Assembly (NCBI GenBank): GCA_039881145.1
Contig: JAYKKI010000039.1
Coordinates: 17,614,001-17,678,000, forward strand
DNA length: 64,000 nucleotides
Source of the DNA: Druceiella hillmani
Lineage: Eukaryota; Arthropoda; Insecta; Lepidoptera; Hepialidae
Direction of reading: 5' to 3'
The notes beneath the pieces were generated by a model, which did no database searches, was not told the origin of the DNA, and saw only the letters and a list, made by a program, of their open reading frames with translations. Positions 5,618 to 62,439 of this stretch are shown here, piece after piece; position 1 is the stretch's first letter, and the number at the start of each line of letters is the position of its first letter. Both the position numbers and the translations under genes were made by a program.

Positions 5618-5705
5618 TAGTATTATTTCTACTTTCTTTAAGTTCTTTACCACGACCTAGGTTTCGGTGTATTACAACATCTTCAGGTGGGTTATTAGCA
5701 GATAT
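5618..5705 (-). mobile_element. Penelope-like ribozyme element, copy A (single arm)
   Basis: A lone, truncated arm of the hammerhead-bearing family. It starts at TAGTATTATTTCTACTTTC, carries the ribozyme on the minus strand and ends after TTATTAGCAGATATC. The second, inverted arm and the CAATATT tail present in fuller copies are missing, and no target duplication could be identified. Confidence 0.7.
5650..5690 (-). ncRNA. Hammerhead ribozyme, type I, copy A (near intact)
   Basis: Minus strand, 5' to 3': CCAC (stem I), CTGAAGA core, stem II hairpin, GAAA core, ACCTAGGT minimal stem III, GTC, GTGG (stem I). All core residues are present. One stem II base pair is lost because the second strand reads ACACC instead of ACAAC. 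The predicted cut lies between 5654 and 5653. Activity is probably reduced but not excluded. Confidence 0.7.
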
Positions 5706-7846: not shown

Positions 7847-8497
7847 GGCAAAATAGATATAATGTTATTACTGAGAATGTGATGTGAAATAATAATGTGA
7901 CATTAAGGTTAATTCAGGGGATTTCAGTAATCTAATGTAAATTATTACAAGGTGGCTACGGAATCCTACCGTGAGCATGTTCGATACAGTCTTGTCCGGT
8001 ATTTAATTGTTTGTTTCTTTTAAATTGCATTTGTTTTTAATTTCGTAAATATTGAAGAATGTTTCGTCTAGAATTAAGAGAGAATTTACGAGACATAAAT
8101 TCTTTTGCAGTCTTTCACAAAACGTCTGTAGTAAATAAATTATAGAAATGAAGTGTAGGATGTCATTTGGTGCGAAAATGGGAGTTCGATAACAAGAATT
8201 TAGAATTTGTTCGTTTAATAATACATAAAAAAATGAAATGGATTCGTTTGTATCCGAGCTGTAGGATTTTAAGTGAATCTTAAAGAACCTTTAAAATTTG
8301 CAAAGTCAAAAAATTTTTTTACTCTTTCTTTTCTGAGTCTCACGCGCTGCAGCCATGCTCCTCTTAGATTAGCTAGAATCTTCAAAGTGTAGGATTTATG
8401 AATATAAACCTATCGGTCCATTATTAACAGAGTTCACGAAATTTGGCATAATTTAATGCATCGAACATTTTGAACTGGCTACCAAACCGAATTTATC
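7847..8497. other. Unassigned sequence
   Basis: No supported feature before the target duplication of the second ribozyme element. Confidence 0.5.
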
Positions 8498-8566
8498 GAA
8501 ATTTTCATCCACAATTAAATGAAACTACGTGATGTAGTATTATTTCTACTATCTTTAATTTCTTTA

Positions 8567-8607
8567 CCACGACCTAGGTTTCATTGTATTACAACATCTT
8601 CAGGTGG
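8567..8607 (-). ncRNA. Hammerhead ribozyme, type I, copy B left arm
   Basis: Minus strand carries CCAC, CTGAAGA, stem II, GAAA, ACCTAGGT, GTC and GTGG in order. The only change is C to T before GAAA, which turns the closing G-C pair of stem II into G-U. Predicted cut between 8571 and 8570. Probably active or weakly active. Confidence 0.75.
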
Positions 8608-8711
8608 GATATTAGCAAATATCATCTTTGAATAGTATTATTGAGGAATATTTGGGATAATATTTGGGATATTAGCAAAGATCATCAAAAAGAAGCATCT
8701 TTGCTAATATC

Positions 8712-8752
8712 CCACCTGAAGATGTTGTAATACAACGAAACCTAGGTCGTGG
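8712..8752 (+). ncRNA. Hammerhead ribozyme, type I, copy B right arm (intact)
   Basis: Stem I strand CCAC (8712-8715), core CTGAAGA (8716-8722), an extra T, stem II GTTGT/ACAAC closed by AAT (8724-8736), core GAAA (8737-8740), minimal stem III in ACCTAGGT, cleavage triplet GTC ending at 8748, and stem I strand GTGG (8749-8752). TCTTT at 8698-8702 can pair with AAAGA further on (8754-8758 or 8763-8767), giving stem I an internal loop that could contact loop II. The very short stem III is characteristic of Penelope-associated hammerheads. The unpaired T before stem II is unusual. Predicted cut between 8748 and 8749. Confidence 0.82.
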
Positions 8753-8865
8753 TAAAGAAATTAAAGATAGTAGAAATAATACTACATCACGTAGTTTCAT
8801 TTAATTGTGAATAATGAATTTCTACAAAATTAACGCCAAATATATTCAATATTAGAAATTTTCAT

Positions 8866-10404
8866 GTCAAAAACAAATTTTGAAAAATAATAAATGTGCC
8901 GGGTGACATTGTTAGTTGCAAATAAATTCTATACTGAAATGTGGGTAGTGCACCCTACGCTGTGCATCCCACGGATGGTCATGAGGACGAAATAACCTTC
9001 GCTCAAAAAGAACGACGCGACATTAGCAAATTTCACCAAATACTTCCATTGTCTGGCTGGCGCATCATAAGAACCGGCCATTTGCTCATATAGCTGATGC
9101 AGTGCAGTTTCTGTGAATGTTTTTCAAACTTGCAAGCGATTTTACACGTAGGCGTATAAAACTTGTGACAAGAGCACAATTGAGGAAAATAGTTATGAAT
9201 CCAGGACGCGGTGATCATGACCTCAGCACCAAGTAGTAATAAGATAAATTAATATTGCAGTATATATCCTCATTTGTTTATGACGTTGTTAATTGCCAAC
9301 ATTATCTACAGAGTTAAGGTCGTAACTCCAATGCAATAACTTGTTCTTTAGAATAAAAAATATAGTCACCGATATTTATAAATGGTTTCTTATCTCTGAC
9401 TTGAAACTATTTCAAAAGATTTTCTACCATTACGAGTTATATACAAATAGTTTTAATTTTAGCGCGTTTAAAAAGGGTTATTATGTATGTTTTTGAAAGT
9501 TCTTTGCGTTAAGTGTTGTTCGTGCCATTGTGATGATAAATTATTTAAAATATAATCGCAGATTATGCACCAGGTGCAAGATTGCAATTTATTAACAGCT
9601 TTGATAAAATATGTGGCGTTCGAAGGTGATCATAGATTATAAGAGTGCATTTTAAAAAATGTTTTTTTAAGTGTATTGGGTTTGTCATAAACAAGGAGGC
9701 AGTTCAAACGTTATTCATTATAAAACATTTGTTTTACAATGAAGATATACTGGTTTGATTTCTTGATATGATGAAGACGAGAAGTTGAGATGAAACGTTA
9801 AGTTAGATTGCTACCTTCACATAAGTAGAAAAAGTGGTACCTTAAATAGTTTTAATTTTTAAAACATATTTTTTTAATGTCGCTGGCTGTTTTCCGTGGT
9901 GTAAAGGTGATTAGTATAATTTATGGAGACGTACGTTTCTTACGAAAATTTTGTCTAAAAATTCCGTTTAGGGTTTATTTTAACATTTTTGTCGATCTAT
10001 TGATTGATATGTTTTATATAAGAACTAGTGACATTGCACGGGTACATTGTAGAGTCGACAAGATATTGTTTATATACCAAGTTAAGTATATAAGGAAATA
10101 TTTTAAGCAAGAGGGAAAAGACTTCCCTAAGTGTCAATTTCCCTGTCCCTTTGTAGTGGTACTATCGAGTGTAGCGGCGTAGTCCTGCGCTTTATTTTTT
10201 TAACAAGAATATAATAATGTACTGCGACATGGTGGCCTTACTGACATCCATCCGCCCTCCAATTTCCTTCCGATTGTTCTAAATGTCATTGAAATGCACA
10301 TTTCGACTTTTGTTTATTCATTTATTTTAAACTGCTAATACAAATTATAAAGAGCGAAGAGTCGGTCTTTATCTGAAGAAAACATTTAAAATGATGTGAA
10401 TGTG
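8866..10404. other. Unassigned sequence
   Basis: No repeat family or gene recognised. A 101-codon frame at 9877-10182 has no known domain, and its composition follows the AT-rich background. Confidence 0.5.
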
Positions 10405-10416
10405 ATTACTATTAAT

Positions 10417-10609
10417 CACAATTAAATGAAACTACGTGATGTAGTATTATTTCTACTTTCTTTAATTTCTTTACCACGACCTAGGTTTCGTTGTATTACA
10501 ACATCTTCTGGTGGGATATTAGCAAAGAATCTTTGCTAATATCCCACCTGTTTCATTTAATTGTGAATAATGAATTTCTAGAAAATTAACGCCAAATATA
10601 TTCAATATT
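10417..10609 (+). mobile_element. Penelope-like ribozyme element, copy C (internally deleted)
   Basis: Left arm starts CACAATTAAATG and the right end finishes CAATATT. The insertion is flanked by ATTACTATTAAT at 10405-10416 and 10607-10618, a 12-bp target duplication that overlaps the element end slightly. The right arm is deleted from just after CCCACCTG to TTTCATTTAATTG, removing its ribozyme. Confidence 0.82.
10474..10514 (-). ncRNA. Hammerhead ribozyme, inactivated copy C
   Basis: The stems and GAAA/GTC core are kept, but CTGAAGA has become CAGAAGA. That replaces an invariant core U and should abolish cleavage. Confidence 0.7.
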
Positions 10610-14228: not shown

Positions 14229-15205
14229 AATATTTTTTTTTAAATCTACCGGTTTAAGTAAATGTACAAGCACATTGGTTTCATTATAATCCTTGAGTAT
14301 TTATATTATTTAAAGGATATCAGGCAGTAAGACCATTTGCCGTAGGCTTTATCTCTTGACCTTCTACTAAATATCTATTGAAGATGATGTAAAGTACAGG
14401 TGATTTAGAATTTTTGAAATCTGCCATTTTAAATACGTGTACAAACAATGCACAAGAGTTTCATTATAATCCTTTTCATGTTCTTAAATAATATCATGCT
14501 GTTTAAGCATTGACCGTACGCTTTATCCCTTGTCCTTCTACTAATTATCTATTGATGATAATGGAAAGTGTAGGTGATATACAATTTTTGAAATCTTCCA
14601 GTTTAAATACGTATACAAACAATGCACAATAGTTCCATTATAATCCTTTTCATGTTCTTTAATAATATCATGTTGTTTAACTATTTGCCGTACACTGTAT
14701 CCCTTGTCCTTCTACTAAATATGTATTGATGATAATGGAAAGTACAGGTGATTTAGAATTTTTGCAGTCTGCCAATTTAAATACGTGTACAGGCAATACA
14801 CGATAGTTTCATTATAATAATTTTCATGTTCTTAAATAACATGCTGTTTAACCATTTGTCGTACGCTTTATCCCTTGTCCTTCTACTAAATATCTATTGA
14901 TGATAATGGAAAGTACAGGTGATTTAGAATTTTTGCAGTCTGCCAATTTAAATACGTGTACAGGCAATACACAATAGTTTCATTATAATCCTTTTCATGT
15001 ATTAAATAACATGCTGTTTAACCATTTGTCGTACGCTTTATCCCTTGTCCTTCTACTAAATATCTATTGTTGATAACGGAAAGTTTATAATTTTTAAAAT
15101 CTGTCCGTTTAAATAAATGTACAGACAATGTATAAGAGTTTCATTGTAAACATTTTGTATGTTCTTTAAATAATATTAGGCATTATAATAATTTGCCGTA
15201 CGCAT
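14229..15205 (+). repeat. Tandem array, ~172 bp unit, about 5.5 copies
   Basis: CCTTCTACTAA marks units at 14360, 14534, 14708, 14879 and 15049 (periods 174, 174, 171, 170), with degraded partial units at both ends. Shared blocks include TTTCATTATAATCCTTTTCATG, AATACGTGTACA and GCTTTATCCCTTG. The period is close to one nucleosome plus linker. Confidence 0.88.
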
Positions 15206-20173: not shown

Positions 20174-22398
20174 AAGTTATGTGGACATTTGAAAACTGGT
20201 ATATGAATGAACATTACGATTTTATTTCTTATATATATTGAAGGTAATTTTCTCTTCCAAAGTTTTTTCTCACGAAAAAAATAAATATAACCAAGGATAT
20301 TACCTGAAAAAGTCTCGAATAAGCTGCGAAACGTCTTTGTGGTAGTCTCTATCGTGGGTAGCAGCCAGCCAGACGAAGTACGTCCGCTGTGTAATGAGTT
20401 AAACGGACAGTATTTTGTCTACCGCTTTTAAGTGGAGTGGAGTTCAACGTTCTTGTCTCGGCGTCGGCAAAGTCGTTCCGTTTAGACGGCGTAATGAGGC
20501 AGCTTGAGAGTGTCGTTCCGTCGATTAATGTCGCAGCTATCCGAGACCGTGACATGTGCACCTTCTGGCGGGGACGCTGTTTGTTTATGTTATTTCTTTT
20601 TTAATCTGTCGTCTTATCTCGAGAGTATTTTATTAAAGAGTTCAAGTACGAGCTTCCAGTTTAAAGTAGGATCGATGAAATTGCAGTTAATATTAGACAC
20701 ATCTGCCTTAATTTTACAGGAAAGCGGACTATATTATCCTTAGTACACTTTAGGGAAGCTGGCAATCTCTAAGGATGCACTATATTCTCTCTCTAGGAAT
20801 GCACTATTTTCACCCAAAAGCAATGCTCGATGAATTCAGGAGACACGTTCGTTATTTCACAAGACGTATTGAAATGTTTCAGTACATTTATCTGATTAAT
20901 ATAATCTTGAGAATAAGTTCATTTTAAGAAAAGTAAATTATTCATTATTTTTCTGTTTTAAAATCAAAGTATACTCGTAAGAAATGAGGTATTTAGTAGT
21001 TATGAAAACCGCTTGTAATTGATTGAGTGAAAAAGTGTTTTTACTACTGAGAAACGAATTCCAAACGTAATGTGGTCTTCTATATTGTAGTTGGGAGGTG
21101 CTTAATAACTACGATACAATTCACGCCTTAGTAAAAATATATTGATAATATGTGTTATATACATGTGATAATATGTGTTAATTAAATCGATCACTGGCCG
21201 TATAAATTGTACGAATCAACCATGTCCCCTTAATTTCGAACTTTTTTTAAATATCAAATTGACGTGAAAACGTCAATTCGTTTGTTAAGTGCAGCGATAG
21301 CCGGTTGAACTTTCTTGTGTTACAAAATACTGTCAGATTTCAATTGCTAGTAACTACGAGACTAATAATAATGCGTTAACAATGATTGAGCCTACAATAG
21401 ATAGAGCATGTATATGTTTGTCCTGCAGTATTTGTTTTACCTGGAATGTTATTGTACTAGTTTAGGTGCACGCTCGTGATTGTTGTGAATTAGCGTTTTG
21501 TGAAGTTATAAATTAGTGTAGCGTGGAAATGCGTTTAGCTAGGATGTTGACTTGGGTGGCATTGTGAAGAGCTTGCAGAGCACTACTAGCACCCATAGTC
21601 TCCACAATAAAATGAAAAAAATACGCAAAGCTATTACGTAGCTGGCCCATCGTGCATACAGCGTCTAGCGACAGTCTCTGTTATACTACTCTAAAGACAC
21701 ATAAGAGATATTACATACAAGAAACACTCATTATGATTTTATCCCAGCGTTTTTACGAAAAATCTAGGACGCGGACCCAATTTGCGCCTTTCGGTTTTTT
21801 TTTGCTTTTTCTTTTAGCCCTTTAGTACTTAGCTGTTTAGTTCCATTTAACGGTTTAAAAATATCTGAGTCCTTTCATTAAGCTCTGTATAACAAGTTGT
21901 CGACTTATTTAACAATGAAACAGGCAGACATTTTGGTTTATATTATTAAAAAAAATGTCAGTGTTTCTAGAACTATGTTTTCTAGAACTGAAATGCGTCT
22001 ACGAAGGTTGCTGTATCCCACATCTTAGATTTGGTATTTGGGGAACGCGATCCGAGAAGATATAGTACATAAAATCACCTCGAAAAGAGACTGACGAAAT
22101 TGATCTTGACTTTACAGAAATAGAAAATAATTTTCAAAAAGCTGATATTTTTTAGAATAAAAAAGAAACAAACGTTTAGGAATTGATAATTAGTACACAA
22201 TAACTTCAGGTATGATTACAGAAAATAATCTATACTAGTGGTTGTCCAGTGATCGAAATTCGACTGTAATATACTTATCTACTGTCTTTTTTGAAAACAC
22301 TAATAGGTAGGCGAGAGTAAGTCAATTCAGAATGCTGCTAAAAAATTTTCCTTTTGGAGCAGGTGAATATTAAGTATGCTCACAGAAACTACTTGATG
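20174..22398. other. Unassigned sequence
   Basis: No repeat family, RNA or coding exon could be supported over about 2.2 kb. 20350-20580 is G+C-richer with short overlapping frames on both strands, none recognisable. Confidence 0.45.
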
Positions 22399-22490
22399 TA
22401 GTATTATTTCTACTTTCTTTAAGTTCTTTACCACGAGCTAGGTTTCGTTGTGTTACAACATCTTCAGGTGGGCTATTAGCAAAAATTTTC
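22399..22490 (-). mobile_element. Penelope-like ribozyme element, copy D (single arm)
   Basis: GTAGTATTATTTCTACTTTC through GGGCTATTAGCAAAAATTTT. The outer part before it (CACAGAAACTACTTGATGTA) is a shortened version of the usual arm end. No second arm or target duplication was found. The 84-codon minus-strand frame ending here contains PEDVVTQRNLARGKELKESR, which is simply this arm translated. Confidence 0.7.
22431..22471 (-). ncRNA. Hammerhead ribozyme, type I, copy D (stem III damaged)
   Basis: CTGAAGA and GAAA are intact and stem II is complete, but the cleavage triplet has changed from GTC to CTC. That also breaks the single C-G pair of stem III. Cleavage should be strongly impaired. 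Confidence 0.65.
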
Positions 22491-29737: not shown

Positions 29738-29752
29738 AAGGTCGCTAAAAAT

Positions 29753-30121
29753 ATTGAATATATTTGGCGTTAATTTTGTAGAAATTCATTATTCATAATT
29801 AATTGAAACTACGTGATTACAACTTAGGATTCGTTGTATTACAACATTTTCAGGTGGGTTATTGGCAAAAAGTATTCTTAAGAACTTCCAACATCATTTA
29901 TATATTACACAAAACAATAGCGGAAGCCGGGTTTGTGCGGGTTTTCCCACTGCTTACGTTAGTGAGTTTATTGTAGGGGAGCGGTGTAGTTTTTATTATA
30001 TAAATACTTGTACATTGTATAACTTTCGAAAATATAATGTAATACAACGAAACCTATCTCGTGGTAAAGAACTTAAAGAAAGTAGAAATAATACTACATC
30101 ACGTAGTTTCATTTAATTGTG
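29753..30121 (-). mobile_element. Penelope-like ribozyme element, copy E (both arms, inverted)
   Basis: Same architecture as copy B but reversed: the AATATTGAATATATTTGGCG tail lies at the left, and the right end is TTTCATTTAATTGTGA. It is flanked by AAGGTCGCTAAAAAT (29738-29752) and AAGGTCGTAAAAAT (30122-30135), a ~15-bp target duplication with one base lost. Both ribozymes are decayed: the left reads CTGAAAA and has lost the GTC region, and the right keeps GAAACCTATCTC but has lost the CTGAAGA half. Confidence 0.8.
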
Positions 30122-33856: not shown

Positions 33857-34793
33857 GACACAGTGATAAAGTATATTAACCCGCTTATATATCAATAGTA
33901 TTTTCAATATTCCCGAAATTGGACACGGTATTAAAGTATATTAACCCGCTTATATCTCAATAGTATTTTCAATATTCCCGAAATTGGACACAGTAATGAA
34001 GTATATTAACCCGCTTATATCTCAATAGTATTTTCAATATTCCCGAAATTGGACACAGTAATGAAGTATATTAACCCGCTTATATCTCAATAGTATTTTC
34101 AATATTCCCGAAATTGGACACAGTAATGAAGTATATTAACCCGCTTATATCTCAATAGTATTTTCAATATTCCCGAAATTGGACACAGTAATGAAGTATA
34201 TTAACCCGCTTATATCTCAATAGTATTTTCAATATTCCCGAAATTGGACACAGTAATGAAGTATATTAACCCGCTTATATCTCAATAGTATTTTCAATAT
34301 TCCCGAAATTGGACACAGTAATGAAGTATATTAACCCGCTTATATCTCAATAGTATTTTCAATATTCCCGAAATTGGACATAATAATGAAGTATATTAAC
34401 CCGCTTATATCTCAATAGTAATTTCAATATTCCCGAAATTGGACACAGTAATGAAGTATATTAACCCGCTTATATCTCAATAGTATTTTCAATATTTCCG
34501 AAATTGGACACAGTAATGAAGTATATTAACCCGCTTATATCTCAATAGTATTTTCAATATTCCCGAAATTGGACACAATAATGAAGTATATTAACCCGCT
34601 TATATCTCAATAGTATTTTCAATATTTCCGAAATTGGACACAGTAATGAAGTATATTAACCCGCTTATATCTCAATAGTATTTTCAATATTTCCGAAATT
34701 GGACACAGTAATGAAGTATATTAACCCGCTTATATCTCAATAGTATTTTCAATATTTCCGAAATTGGACACAGTAATAAAGTATATTAACCAG
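33857..34793 (+). repeat. Satellite array, 65 bp unit, about 14 copies
   Basis: GGACAC(A/G)GTA begins units every exactly 65 bases from 33921 to 34766, with one diverged unit before. Unit content: GAAGTATATTAACCCGCTTA, TATCTCAATAGTATTTTC, AATATTCCCGAAATT. Changes are few (TCCCG to TTCCG in later units, TAATAATG at 34381). The array stops exactly where a reverse transcriptase fragment starts. Confidence 0.96.
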
Positions 34794-34800
34794 CTTACCT

Positions 34801-43566: not shown

Positions 43567-43850
43567 TAATTTACATTAATACATACAGTGTAAACTCTTT
43601 ATAACGAAACTCAAGGGACCGAGTGTTTTCTTGCGTAATAGAGAGTTTTCGCTTTATGGAGTGTATATATAGAATACATATTATACGATCCAAATCGCCA
43701 AAGTTTACACCGTATGTATAATTTACATTAATACATACAGTGTAAACTCTTTATAATGAAACTCAAGGGACCGAGTATTTTCTTTCGTTATAGAGAGTTT
43801 TCGCTTTATGTGGTGTGTATATAGAATACATATTATATGATCTAAGTCGC
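43567..43850 (+). repeat. Tandem duplication of the pogo-like left end plus flank, 152 bp
   Basis: AATTTACATTAATACATACA followed by GTGTAAACTCTTTATAA occurs with CAGTG at 43586 and at 43738. Both are followed by ACTCAAGGGACCGAG and GAGAGTTTTCGCTTTATG. The unit contains flank, the TA, the inverted end and inner sequence. Confidence 0.9.
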
Positions 43851-44309
43851 TAAATTTAGGTTTCCTTAACTTCTTACTAGAACGTCCTTCTATTTCAACC
43901 TTTAGTATCTTCTCCTTGCTCTTCCAAATGGTAGACACAGTCGAGGCACCAAGTCCAAAACATCTCCCATTATTACCTTTTCTCCTTTCTCTAATGCACG
44001 TATTAAAACTACTTTCTGGTCTGTATACAATATTTTTATCTTCGTAGCTATATTTGCTCTTTCAAGTTTCGATGTATCACTTGATTACACGAAGCTGTAA
44101 TGTGTTAAGTTTCAATTATACCGAGTAAACACGTGTGTCGGACATCAATAATATCGGACTCTAATATGGACTTAGTGATAAAAAACAATAAACACAATTA
44201 TGACAGCCTAAAAATGTAATACAGAAGTGTATGGGTGAGAAGGCAAATTAACTAAGATCACGCAATATTTACGTTATAGGGAGTTTTCCATTATAAAGAG
44301 TTTACACTG
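43586..44309 (-). mobile_element. pogo/Tigger-like DNA transposon remnant
   Basis: The left end reads TA-CAGTGTAAACTCTTTATAA and the right end TTATAAAGAGTTTACACTG-TA, so the ends are inverted and flanked by TA as in pogo-type elements. The minus strand carries part of the transposase DNA-binding region. At ~724 bases it is far too short for an autonomous element. Both ends with adjacent flank have been tandemly duplicated (see the repeat entries). An imperfect second right end lies at about 44514-44520. Confidence 0.8.
43850..44062 (-). pseudogene. pogo/Tigger transposase N-terminal fragment
   Basis: One minus-strand frame gives ATKIKILYTDQKVVLIRALE followed by KGEK; after a frameshift the next gives FGASTVSTIWKSKEKI. 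The KxxVLIxALEKGEK...FGxSxSTVSTIWKxKEKI pattern is the CENP-B-N/psq helix-turn-helix that binds the element ends in Tigger and pogo transposases. The frameshift and loss of the catalytic DDE domain make it non-functional. The open frame continuing to 43723 reads on through the duplicated end and is not transposase. Confidence 0.7.
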
Positions 44310-44612: not shown

Positions 44613-45491
44613 GAATTTGGTCAATATTTCCATTCGGTGAATGTGCTAGAAATTACTGTCAGGTTTGTCATCAAAGGGTTATTTAAGCGGCGCGCATTTG
44701 ATTGAAAAGGAACAGTCATTGTAGTTATTGGTGTCATCTCTTCTGCTTGAACCTCTATTGAAACATCGTTCCCTGTAATTGATAATAGCTCGCAATTGAG
44801 TAATATTAGTGAGAATGAGAAATTGAACAGTATTTTAAACTCAATTCTATGTTCAGATTACCAGGGGTTTAGGCCGTAGTTGAAGTGAAAAATCTTGAAA
44901 CTTTAAAATTATCGTATTAAACAGTAAGAAAAGGTTTGCTTAATTACATTGTTAAACGCCTCGATTAAAGTTTTTCTAGAAACGGGTACGATTTTCATCA
45001 GTCTTCTTCCACTTTTCATTTCCTTTACGTCATTGAACAAAATTTTGTCTAATTTTGTAACACATAATCTATCAGCTATAAATATACATATAGATAAGGA
45101 ATCTGTAACTGTCGATTATGTTACTTTTAATTAATGTCAAATTTAATTATGATGTACAATTGCAGGATGTTGTCAACTAGTGAGTGCTATAGATGGGAAT
45201 ATACTTACATATTATATACTTACTTGCGGATGTTCGAGTCGTCTTGCACGTCCCATCTTACGTACGCTACGTGACTTGTGTTGACAGGCAGATGCGATGG
45301 CAGGTGATCGTCAAACGCCTGGTCTATTGTTGTCGTAAGGCGTAGGTAAATACTGTAGGGTTGTAGTAATAAGCGGTCACGCGAGGGTGATTAAAGTGGG
45401 CGGTGATGGGTCTAGTTTGATGGAATAAAATGATACGGTTTGAATTGTAGTTTTTTAGACCCTAGGGATGAATTCTATATTTTAAAATGAT
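44613..45491. other. Unassigned sequence
   Basis: No supported feature. A weak acceptor-like CAATTGCAG lies at about 45157-45165. Confidence 0.4.
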
Positions 45492-45689
45492 GTATTATTT
45501 CTACTTTCTTTAAGTTCTTTACCACGACCTAGGTTTCGTTGTATTACAACATCTTCAGGTGGGCTATTAGCAAAGATCGTGGTATTATTTCTACTTTCTT
45601 TAAGTTCTTTACCACGATCTAGGTCGTGGTAGTTTCATTTAATTGTGAATAATGAATTTCTACAAAATTAACGCCAAATATATTCAATA
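45492..45689 (+). mobile_element. Penelope-like ribozyme element, copy F
   Basis: Left arm with intact ribozyme (TGTATTATTTCTACTTTCTT to GGGCTATTAGCAAAGATCG). Part of the same arm is then repeated directly (45581-45620), joined to ACCACGATCTAGGTCGTGGT and the usual tail TTTCATTTAATTGTGAATAA to CAATATT. The order suggests a partly tandem, partly inverted joining of arms. A target duplication around TTTTAAAATG / TTTGTAAAATG is possible but imperfect. Confidence 0.75.
45522..45562 (-). ncRNA. Hammerhead ribozyme, type I, copy F (intact)
   Basis: Every core and stem position matches the 8712-8752 copy: CCAC, CTGAAGA, GTTGT-AAT-ACAAC, GAAA, ACCTAGGT, GTC, GTGG. Predicted cut between 45526 and 45525. 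Confidence 0.82.
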
Positions 45690-46139
45690 TTTGTAAAATG
45701 TTGTCAAATTCGTTAGAGCTGCATTTGCAGAATTGTTTGAACATTAATATGTTTGATTATTTTGTGAAATTTATGGTAAATTTATGCTACTTATATCGTT
45801 CGATAAATATTTTAAACGTTGATGACTAATATATTAACTGTGAAAGAAATACGGAATAATTAGCCTACTTAATGGTGTTGTTTCTTATTCTGGAAATTCA
45901 ATATTTGTAAAATGGTGTCAAATTCGTTAGAGCTGCATTTGCAGAATTGTTTGAACATTGATATGTTTGATTATTTTGTGAAATTTATGGTAATTTTTGT
46001 GCTACTTATATCGTTCGATAAATAATTTAAACGTTGATGACTAATATATTAACTGTGAAAGAAACTATTCGGAAGCTGCCAAGTACATTTATATTACGTT
46101 TTCACTCATATACGGAATAATTAGCCTACTTAATGGTGT
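45683..46139 (+). repeat. Tandem duplication, 214 bp unit, joined to the ribozyme element end
   Basis: TTCAATATTTGTAAAATG starts units at 45683 and 45897. The first nine bases are the end of ribozyme element F, so the unit carries that end. The second unit has an extra ~39 bases (TTCGGAAGCTGCCAAGTACA region) near 46068. Confidence 0.88.
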
Positions 46140-48715: not shown

Positions 48716-49937
48716 AGCACAACATTCTAATAGTCATTATTGTTTGAATCAATCGGATAATGACTTCACTAACAACGAAGCCTACAAACATGACTAATAC
48801 GTAAGAAACGTATTAGTCAAGTTTGTAGCCTTCGTTCGCTTTACGAAAGCCAGGAACAATGAATGAATAACAGGAAAGATGTATTGTTACTCTTTAGTAA
48901 CCATCTTTCGATAATGGAGAAGAATAATAGAAAGATTATTATTAATAAATAACTGATTAAAAGCTCTAACTAATTGTTATATATGGTTGGAATATACAGT
49001 ATCATTTATAATCTCTATGTCAAATAATATAGTATAATCGATTGAATTCATGAGCACAACATTCTAATAGTCATTATTGTTTGAGTCAATCGGATAATGA
49101 CTTTATTAATAACGAAAGCTACAAACGTGACTACGTAGGAAACAAGTGAGGAACAATAAATTAATAACGGGAAAGATGTATTGTTACTCTTTAGTAACCA
49201 TCTTTCGATAATGGAGAAGAATAATAGAAATATTATTATTAATAAATAACTGATTAAAAGCTCTAACTAATAAGTTATATATGGTTGGAATATACAAAAT
49301 CATTCATAATCTCTATGTCAAATAATATAGTATAATCGATTGAATTCATGAGCACAACATTCTAATAGTCATTATTGTTTGAGTCAATCGGATAATGACT
49401 TTATTAATAACGAAAGCTACAAACGTGACTACGTAGGAAACAAGCGAGGAACAATAAATGAATAACGGGAAAGATGTATTGTTATTCTTTAGTAATCATC
49501 TTTCGATAATGGAGAAGAATAATAGAAAGGTGATCATTAATAAATAATTGATGAAAAGCTCTAACTAATAGTTATATATGGTTGGAATATACAGAATCAT
49601 TCATAATCTCTATGTCAAATAATATAGTATAATCGATGGAATTCATGAGCACAACATTCTAATAGTCATTATTGTTTGAGTCAATCGGATAATGACTTTA
49701 CTAATAACGAAAGCTACAAACGTGACTACGTAGGAAACAAGCGAGGAACAATAAATTAATAACGGGAAAGATGTATTGTTACTCTTTAGTAACCATCTTT
49801 CGATAACGGAGAAGAATAATAGAAAGGTGATCATTAATAAATAACTGATGAAAAGCTCTAACTAATAGCTATATATGGTTGGAATATAAAAAATTATTCA
49901 TAATCTCTATGTCAAATAATATAATCGATCGAATTCA
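48716..49937 (+). repeat. Tandem array, ~298 bp unit, 4 copies
   Basis: AGCACAACATTCTAATAGTC starts units at 48716, 49053, 49351 and 49648 (periods 337, 298, 297). Each contains GGGAAAGATGTATTGTTA, a TAACCATCTTTCGATAA stretch, TATATGGTTGGAATATA and AATATAGTATAATCGAT. The first unit is longer because it keeps the second arm of a hairpin. Confidence 0.94.
48776..48834. repeat. 27-bp-arm hairpin in the first array unit
   Basis: CGAAGCCTACAAAC-ATGACTAATACGT is inverted at 48808-48834 with two mismatches around an AAGAA loop. Units 2-4 keep the first arm in shortened form and lack the second. Confidence 0.85.
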
Positions 49938-58985: not shown

Positions 58986-59226
58986 TCACAATTAAGTGAA
59001 ACTACGTGATGTAGTATTATTTCTACTTTCTTTAAATTCTTTACCACAACCTAGGTTTCGTTGTATTACAAATCTTCATAAGTTGATGATAAGTTGATAC
59101 GAAGATGTTGTAACCTAGGTCGCGGTAAAGAAAATAAAGAAAGTAGAAATAATACTACATCACGTAGTTTCATTTAATTGTGAATAATGAATTTCTACAA
59201 AATTAACGCCAAATATATTCAATATT
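58986..59226 (+). mobile_element. Penelope-like ribozyme element, copy G (both arms, ribozymes decayed)
   Basis: Flanked by an exact 13-bp target duplication CAAATAAGTTTAT (58973-58985 and 59227-59239). Left arm TCACAATTAAGTGAAAC, right end CAATATT. In the left arm the minus-strand ribozyme has ATGAAGA for CTGAAGA and GTT for GTC. The right arm lacks most of stem II and the GAAA core. Confidence 0.84.
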
Positions 59227-61075: not shown

Positions 61076-62066
61076 TAGCCTTTCATTAGTGTTAGTGTGC
61101 TATTATATCCCTAAACGATGCCGTTTATTATTATTGGCACAACATTCAACACTTTGTCACAAGCTACTAGAAGTGTTCTGAAACGTGTTCGTACCTGCAT
61201 GTAGAAAAATGGAGACCATGTTGAACGTTTAATGAAGCAATAGCCTTTCATTAGTGTTAGTGTGCTATTATATCCCTAAACGATGCCGTTTATTATTATT
61301 GGCACAACATTCAACACTTTGTCAAAAGCTACTAGAAGTGTTCTGAAACGTGTTCGTACCTGCATGTAGAAAAATGGAGACCATGTTGAACGTTTAATGA
61401 AGCAATAGCCTTTCATTAGTGTTAGTGTGCTATTATATCCCTAAACGATGCCGTTTATTATTATTGGCACAACATTCAACACTTTGTCACAAGCTACTAG
61501 AAGTGTTCTGAAACGTGTTCGTACCTGCATGTAGAAAAATGGAGACCATGTTGAACGTTTAATGAAGCAATAGCCTTTCATTAGTGTTAGTGTGCTATTA
61601 TATCCCTAAACGATGCCGTTTATTATTATTGGCACAACATTCAACACTTTGTCAAAAGCTACTAGAAGTGTTCTGAAACGTGTTCGTACCTGCATGTAGA
61701 AAAATGGAGACCATGTTGAACGTTTAATGAAGCAATAGCTTTTCATTAGTGTTAGTGTGCTATTATATCCCTAAACGATGCCGTTTATTATTATTGGCAC
61801 AACATCCAACACTTTGTCAAAAGCTACTAGAAGTGTTCTGAAACGTGTTCGTACCTGCATGTAGAAAAATGGAGACCATGTTGAACGTTTAATGAAGCAA
61901 TAGCCTTTCATTAGTGTTAGTGTGCTATTATATCCCTAAACGATGCCGTTTATTATTATTGGCACAATATTCAACACTTTGTCACAAGCTACTAGAAGTG
62001 TTCTGAAACGTGTTCGTACCAGCATTTTAGAAAAATGGAGACCATGTTGAACGTTTAATGAAGCAA
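61076..62066 (+). repeat. Tandem array, exactly 165 bp unit, 6 copies
   Basis: TAGCCTTTCATTAGTGTTAG starts units at 61076, 61241, 61406, 61571, 61736 and 61901. Unit content includes CCCTAAACGATGCCGTTTAT, CACTTTGTCA(C/A)AAGCTACT and AATGGAGACCATGTTGAACG. The copies are almost identical. The variable position reads C, A, C, A, A, C along the array, so the first four copies form a repeated 330-bp dimer. Non-coding. Confidence 0.97.
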
Positions 62067-62439
62067 TAGTTTTATTTAGGTACTAATTTTACACATATTG
62101 TATAAGAAACTTTTGCTGTCCAGATTTTTTTCCTCCCACAAAATGAAAATGATACTAATATGAAACTGGATCGATTCACATAGAAAAAAATTTGTTACGT
62201 TTATTAATTTTTATGGAAAACTCACGCCTGCATTTTTTCCATAAAAAAGATCTGATGGTACCTAAGACAGTTTTCCTTTATCTACTATGGATGGTTTCGG
62301 ATTTCCTCGTATTTTCCCAATTAAAAAAAACTCTGTATATAGCTCTTTGCGATATGATTTTTTAAAAATAAAAAAACATCCTTGAAGTAAAAAGTACCTA
62401 CGCTGTTTTTGATTGTTTATTAAATAAATACTTGCAAGA
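62067..62439. other. Unassigned sequence
   Basis: No supported feature. The minus-strand frame 62262-62585 overlaps dispersed repeat D. Confidence 0.45.

Follow-up and report, generated by a model that had tools for sequence, protein, structure and literature searches.

A foldback element with two opposed hammerhead motifs in a moth genome is a short Penelope-like insertion, probably formed by priming from both ends of the target

The 64-kb stretch of DNA analysed here (the window; contig JAYKKI010000039.1 of the hepialid moth Druceiella hillmani, positions 17,614,001 to 17,678,000) contains, at 8510-8853, a small foldback element whose two arms carry hammerhead-ribozyme motifs that face opposite ways. 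We identified this element as a short, protein-less insertion of an endonuclease-bearing (EN+) Penelope-like element (PLE). Comparison with other insertions of the family in the same genome makes it very likely that both strands of a staggered target cut prime reverse transcription from two fixed sites on the element RNA, and that the two cDNAs are joined head-to-head. The insertion of PLEs has been unclear since inverted pseudo-long terminal repeats (pLTRs) with optional tails were described. One study invoked self-priming (PMC3846280) and another left the steps after first-strand synthesis open (PMC11167929). The moth genome holds many clean insertions in which one can read both outer ends, the junction inside and how the two halves are related by source. 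These insertions allow two-ended priming to be told apart from self-priming and reveal an asymmetric choice of reverse transcriptase (RT) start sites. Two-ended copying would also account in a simple manner for the opposite orientation of the ribozyme motifs, and with it for an old insertion puzzle, and the embedded hammerheads are suggested to have been uncut in the RNAs that became DNA.

The element has two inverted arms of 116 nt, 8507-8622 and 8697-8812, that show 97% complementarity and are spaced by 74 nt. They are flanked by an exact target site duplication, GAAATTTTCAT, at 8498-8508 on the left and 8855-8865 on the right (11/11; for a shared run of at least 11 between random 26-mers of the window, P ~0.001). 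The earlier note on this DNA had described the opposed arms, each with one hammerhead motif, and the exact 11-bp duplication, and both descriptions hold. The span that it gave, 8509-8854, is refined to 8510-8853, the bases at 8509 and 8854 being ambiguous, and a 44-nt tail 3' of the right arm (8810-8853, plus strand), without counterpart on the left side, is new relative to it. In terms of the parent element, the left arm (8510-8622, minus strand) is an antisense copy of the 5' transcript region of a Penelope pLTR; it has no tail and its outer end lies at RT start site 1, where genome copies end alike. The right arm (8697-8809, plus strand) is a sense copy of the same region up to site 1, and the tail runs from site 1 to site 2 and contains, from the ATG at 8814 on, the opening 13 codons (MNFYKINAKYIQY) of the Penelope open reading frame (ORF). 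The central junction filler (8623-8696) consists partly of scraps of the arms' 5' sequence, and 8605-8626 is repeated at 8665-8686. A reading of the arm itself as coding sequence (open frame PPEDVVIQRNLGRGKE...) was dropped; differences between copies follow no codon pattern by eye, and the frame meets stops before the tail.

The genome searched was the window's own assembly (2.586 Gb). The arm query (window 8690-8820) gave 68 matches, with the best 40 of 224 candidates scored. A GIY-YIG search, in which the best 150 of 1572 candidates were scored, gave two places over the cut-off, L161 and L162. The GIY-YIG ORF of L162 (2.5e-8, above the cut-off) lies between two inverted arms of 86-89% identity, and L161 is without an arm. 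The 121-aa ORF of L162 was used as a further query and gave 150 scored places (the best 150 of 6151 candidates). Arms accompany 29 of the 30 endonuclease loci fetched, being partial in L168 and missing from L171; they mostly start about 590 bp past the endonuclease and are mostly 94-100% identical to the window unit. In the two longer loci scanned, L194 and L207, an RVT_1 domain (4.3e-15 and 8.9e-15) stands in one frame with a C-terminal GIY-YIG that scores 19.9 and 21.6 bits, just under the curated cut-off of 22.6. A sequence search of PDB with an RT-endonuclease ORF gave no match at 0.01. The Penelope ORF begins MNFYKINAKYIQYLKTAD in L194 and L205, and translation of the window tail gives MNFYKINAKYIQY; therefore the arms represent the 5' region of the transcript (pLTR) and the tail the beginning of the Penelope ORF. 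The family thus has the RT domain, the C-terminal GIY-YIG and the ORF-flanking pLTRs with an optional one-sided tail by which EN+ PLEs are recognized. A Penelope-like origin had been inferred from the window sequence, together with the proposal that a genome search might find a GIY-YIG-linked reverse transcriptase beside the arms. That search succeeded, and the possibility that relatives carry a transposase in place of a Penelope-type polymerase, examined in this one direction, is answered by RVT_1 and GIY-YIG.

Most insertions of the family are head-to-head twins. Neighbouring endonuclease pairs less than 12 kb apart among the 150 scored places are head-to-head in 25/25 cases (minus, plus), with gaps of 324-5534 bp. 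From these pairs 21 were fetched as long twins, and 39 short copies were also fetched. A rescan of the 21 twin loci counted 21 head-to-head pairs, one same-orientation pair (L205, through an extra copy outside the 150 scored places) and no tail-to-tail pair. In L205 (G000:C33:823680-832338) a plus-strand endonuclease copy faces a tandem of two on the minus strand, which makes it a twin with a partial tandem at one side; the balance between the explanations is unchanged by it. The tandem or partially tandem arrangement known from the Poseidon element of Anolis carolinensis (PAc) is not the rule here, which does not disqualify the family, as PLEs with inverted pLTRs are known (PMC3846280). L196 and L197 (G000:C13:454681 and C13:2097938) lie 1.6 Mb apart with identical printed flanks, either as a segmental duplication or as an assembly duplicate, and are probably one insertion duplicated.

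The outer ends of these insertions fall at two fixed places. Both outer arms are present in 55 copies. In 44 of these, 26 of them short and 18 long, the target is duplicated exactly over 9 bp or more; the duplications have a mode of 12 bp and are 82% A+T, as is usual for the AT-rich targets of PLEs, and a duplication of at least 9 bp is expected by chance at 0.013. With positions counted from window 8690 as q1, which puts the ORF start codon at q125, all 44 have one end within q117-125 (mode q120) and the opposite end within q156-167, so that each insertion has one end of each kind. Site 2 lies about 41 nt beyond site 1; counted from A9 of the hammerhead, the two sites are at +88 and +132. The 11 other two-armed copies were set aside for their shorter duplication matches. 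Most of them show the same two ends; the second arm is shorter in L130, L141 and L158, and the ends are less clear in L151 and L210.

At the inner ends, the left arms of short copies stop no higher than q10 in 25 of 35 cases, and all 39 right arms start no higher than q8, although the arm query favours right arms that start there. The pLTR of long elements continues upstream of q8, and on the simplest reading q4-q8 would be the 5' end of the RNA. The junctions between the arms are distinct in 35/35 short copies, those of L123 and L130 being alike; these two loci, which lie on one contig at a distance of 70 kb, have the right flank in common as well and are probably a segmental duplication. Pieces of junction filler such as GGTGGGATATTAG are scraps of the arms, as would be expected from template-using end joining. 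Short secondary matches had suggested short inverted arms that end at the hammerhead; this was dropped when direct alignment gave longer arms. Among the 21 long twins, the halves stop at different points of the element in 18 of 18 that could be scored (L198 and L213 were left out as ambiguous, and L197 as the duplicate of L196), with a difference of 16-1468 nt. They meet through 1-9 shared bases in 11 cases and through 3-42 nt of filler in seven.

These ends bear on self-priming, in which a single cDNA would fold back and copy itself to give inverted arms. It has been argued for Penelope elements of Adineta from palindromes at the junctions (PMC3846280), and some junctions in the moth are near-perfect palindromes (10510-10548 in window copy c3; overlapping arms in L125, L132, L134 and L148). 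The usual near-identity of twin halves would also fit. However, self-priming is disfavoured because it predicts equal inner and outer ends, and the outer ends are unequal in 44/44 insertions and the inner ends in all 18 scorable long twins. In L207, moreover, one half differs at 7 positions from another insertion and at 30 from its own partner. We therefore regard self-priming as quite improbable for this family.

The relation between the halves was read from their sequence differences. When the endonuclease and 3' region were compared in 20 twins, without L205, the mean number of differences was 14.6 within twins and 46.3 between them, and none of 10000 permutations was as low. In the 20 long twins, 115 private alleles are common to both halves and 219 are found in one half only; L196 is closest to its duplicate L197. 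The short copies point the same way (27 copies; mean differences 2.33 within and 2.99 between, 0/5000 permutations as low), and a variant at q79 is concordant between arms in 11 of them and discordant in one. Usually, not always, one source appears to have supplied both templates, as expected if two RNA molecules were used. Five twins have no difference between their halves over about 880 nt, which suggests recent activity, a weaker statement than the current mobility considered in the earlier note.

Several observations weigh against priming from both ends of one target as the general explanation. The halves of L207 and L208 are not mutual closest matches, and a common RNA source is thus not universal. 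The private variants of the short copies, 41 in number, are each confined to one arm, and none is common to both. The same-orientation pair in L205 means that partial tandems occur. Four of the 39 short copies (L122, L129, L138 and L154) have no inverted arm, and two window copies, c1 and c4, are one-armed; therefore two-ended priming is not obligatory. Finally, the arm query by which the short copies were found reaches 11 nt into the tail, which partly selects for their tailed end; the long twins came from the endonuclease search, and their tails are unselected.

On balance, we consider two-ended priming very likely to be the mechanism. From the arrangement of the insertions we infer priming on both strands, copying to an RNA 5' end and end joining. 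The PLE protein would cut AT-rich DNA with a stagger of about 12 bp, and each exposed 3' end would prime a cDNA on PLE RNA, one of them at site 1, some 4 nt ahead of the ORF start codon, and the other at site 2, in codon 13-14. If priming took place at the first pLTR/ORF junction, the cDNAs would run off the 5' end of the RNA after about 113 and 157 nt and give the short copies; if it took place at the downstream pLTR, they would extend through the endonuclease and polymerase, yielding the long twins. End joining would then connect the 3' ends of the two cDNAs head-to-head, leaving the opposed hammerheads, apparently uncut in the copied RNAs, as a by-product of twinning. Head-to-head order, a tail on one side only, the duplication and inner ends that differ would all follow directly from two-ended priming. 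Biochemical work on a related element offers a precedent: the purified Anolis PLE cuts and extends both strands in vitro, with no strand difference, and its RT starts at two internal sites bounding a "tail" (PMC11167929). We also lean, with more reserve, towards a wider view in which Penelope retrotransposition is normally two-ended: a dimeric particle would cut about 12 bp apart and its protomers would prime separate cDNAs at different fixed sites, before the start codon and 13 codons in. The inverted twin, not the tandem, would then be the primary product, and the tiny hammerhead foldbacks its run-off class.

The hammerhead motifs that drew attention to the element are present on both strands in the order that had been described. 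On the plus strand of the right arm (8712-8752) the order is CCAC (8712-8715), CTGAAGA (8716-8722), an extra T, GTTGT-AAT-ACAAC, GAAA, CCTAGG, TC and GTGG, with C3 at 8716, A9 at 8722, a palindromic stem III (ACCTAGGT) and a predicted cut between 8748 and 8749. The left arm has the same order on the minus strand (8567-8607), ACAAT replacing ACAAC, with C3 at 8603 and a predicted cut between 8571 and 8570. With CTGANGA, stem II, GAAA, stem III, H17 and stem I, the motif has the parts of a minimal type-I PLE hammerhead, and a single unpaired T lies between A9 and stem II. A strict descriptor (cores and three stems) matched three times in the 64 kb, always within this family (twice in 8510-8853 and once at 45558, in copy c6). 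When both strands of 150 dinucleotide-shuffled windows were scanned it never matched, and a chance origin was rejected.

Rfam, which the earlier note had named as a check, found no hammerhead in the whole window at E up to 1, nor in 8480-8880 at E up to 10. This null carries little weight because, at the gathering threshold, Rfam also returned nothing in nine viral-collection contigs, eight of which hold by eye three-stem hammerhead motifs with an extra base after CTGANGA. As an arbiter of the motif it was set aside as uninformative. The viral contigs gave no match to the family or Penelope-hammerhead patterns; a looser hammerhead pattern picked out 113 stretches, 13 of which passed a stem filter. 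Twelve IMG/VR contigs (L047, L053, L057, L064, L065, L067, L070, L077, L089, L095, L098 and L102) have CTGATGA, an unpaired T, a strong stem II and GAAACGTC, and some of the IMG/VR motifs sit, by eye, shortly upstream of an ATG. Rfam at the gathering threshold found none in the IMG/VR contigs scanned (eight of these twelve and L041).

It had been suggested that each strand of a transcript of the element could cut itself, and our results do not support this. Folding predictions for the full element place the arms in a single long duplex (-193.5 kcal/mol) that buries the motif, every hammerhead pair having a probability of 0.0. Stem III (ACCUAGGU) is its own reverse complement. A double hammerhead of two same-sense copies is predicted at -23.6 kcal/mol (best co-fold -24.8) and the monomeric hammerhead at -4.1 (best monomer fold -8.2). 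According to PMC6466107, the double hammerheads found in mobile elements of eukaryotes depend on a palindromic stem III and on copies arranged in tandem. By these predictions the palindromic stem III favours a dimer of same-sense copies, which an inverted pair cannot form in cis. Among the 121 arm segments longer than 60 nt in the 60 examined loci, 117 cross the predicted cut site and none starts at it; the copied RNAs therefore appear to have been uncut there. The strict hammerhead is intact in 39 of 44 long-twin arms and in 46 of the 70 short-copy arms that hold the whole region. The mismatch rate is 0.0135 in the motif against 0.0213 in the rest of the arm, a nominal difference among copies that are not independent. 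The hammerheads look like bystanders of twinning, and self-cleavage of the motif at GTC|G is putative.

The same data bear on a retrozyme-like origin, in which a circular RNA element would use its hammerheads to process the transcript and drive its spread. Such an origin would suit a small non-autonomous element with type-I hammerheads that are intact in most arms, and animal retrozymes have been proposed to rely on PLEs (PMC7761336). Retrozymes, however, are direct tandem repeats with a hammerhead in each (PMC7229834), an arrangement that we did not find in the 25 scored neighbour pairs, all of which are inverted. With no arm segment beginning at the cleavage site, and with the ribozyme fold excluded by the predicted duplex of the full element, we judge this origin highly improbable. 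A foldback or MITE-like (miniature inverted-repeat transposable element) DNA transposon, mobilized by a transposase with its inverted arms already complete, would match the inverted arms, tight 12-bp duplications, small size and many copies, but is extremely improbable, as the termini differ, the tail is on one side only, the central junction is distinct in 35/35 copies with no conserved interior, and the arms belong to an element with RT and GIY-YIG (no transposase search was made in the fetched loci).

Seven loci of the family lie within the window. Besides the element at 8510-8853, these are c1, a single arm (5618-5700, minus strand); c3, with two arms, the sense arm having an internal deletion, a tail and a 12-bp duplication (10417-10609, plus); c4, a single arm with another 3' tail and, by eye, an 11-bp duplication, GGAAAATTTTT (22385-22486, minus); c5, with two arms, a tail at the left, an imperfect duplication by eye and a centre that matches the longer pLTR at 81% (29750-30121, minus); c6, rearranged, with a tail and a weak 7-bp duplication only (45488-45691, plus); and c7, with two arms, a tail and a 13-bp duplication (58987-59226, plus). 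The tail seen at 8810-8853 is present in five of the seven, with its end base equal within one or two nt. Copy c4 joins the usual arm to an unrelated 33-nt tail and has its own duplication, and perhaps belongs to another subfamily with a different ORF start. No ORF of the Penelope element was found in any of the seven copies, and the 125 ORFs scanned against Pfam, out of 157 in the window that reach 60 aa, gave no RT or GIY-YIG at E 0.01. Elsewhere in the window, an ORF at 43726-44061 (minus strand) matches the CENP-B N-terminal domain (8.4e-5) and is probably a remnant of a pogo-like transposase. Tandem repeats account for 28 rows in the 64 kb, many with 2-6 units of 65-345 bp (e.g. 14332-15203, 33857-34797, 48847-49923 and 61076-62069), and the strict hammerhead descriptor found no match in these arrays.

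A literature search over titles and abstract openings, with subscription papers outside its reach, found no account of inverted Penelope pLTRs made by two-ended target priming, and an earlier one may be in print. The closest known system is PAc (PMC11167929). It has the same order of RT and GIY-YIG in one ORF, the same minimal hammerhead at the pLTR/ORF junction and the same pair of internal RT start sites, which bound a tail close to where the ORF begins; the main site in PAc is 111-118 nt into the ORF. The predicted cut lies 26 nt downstream of the start codon in PAc and 27 nt, counted from the A9 ATG, in the moth. AT-rich targets are common to both, and cutting and extension of both strands in vitro is known from PAc only. 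In contrast to PAc, whose loci are described as tandem repeats, 25 of 25 scored pairs here are head-to-head, with one same-orientation pair in L205. The PAc ORF appears to start at A9 of the hammerhead, whereas the A9 ATG of the moth meets a stop at the third codon and the ORF starts at the tail ATG. Also unlike PAc, all 44 two-armed insertions combine the two start sites, one at each end.

The Penelope of Adineta vaga (PMC3846280) has the same inverted pLTRs, mostly head-to-head, with 8-10-bp duplications and an optional 31-bp tail on one pLTR that reaches 12 to 22 codons into the ORF. There they were explained by self-priming, whereas the unequal inner and different outer ends in the moth argue for two separately primed cDNAs. 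The word hammerhead is absent from that account, whereas the moth copies carry hammerhead motifs, and the seven moth window copies differ from the Adineta elements in having no element ORF. Small PLE hammerhead variants whose cleavage is dimeric (Lunse et al. 2017, cited by both PMC6466107 and PMC7761336) have the same very short stem III, a palindrome that permits a double hammerhead. They are said to need tandem copies, whereas the two copies of the moth element are inverted. Animal non-LTR retrozymes (PMC7229834) are likewise short non-autonomous elements with type-I hammerheads; they are direct tandem repeats with circular RNAs of about 170-400 nt, whereas the moth family consists of inverted twins with target duplications.
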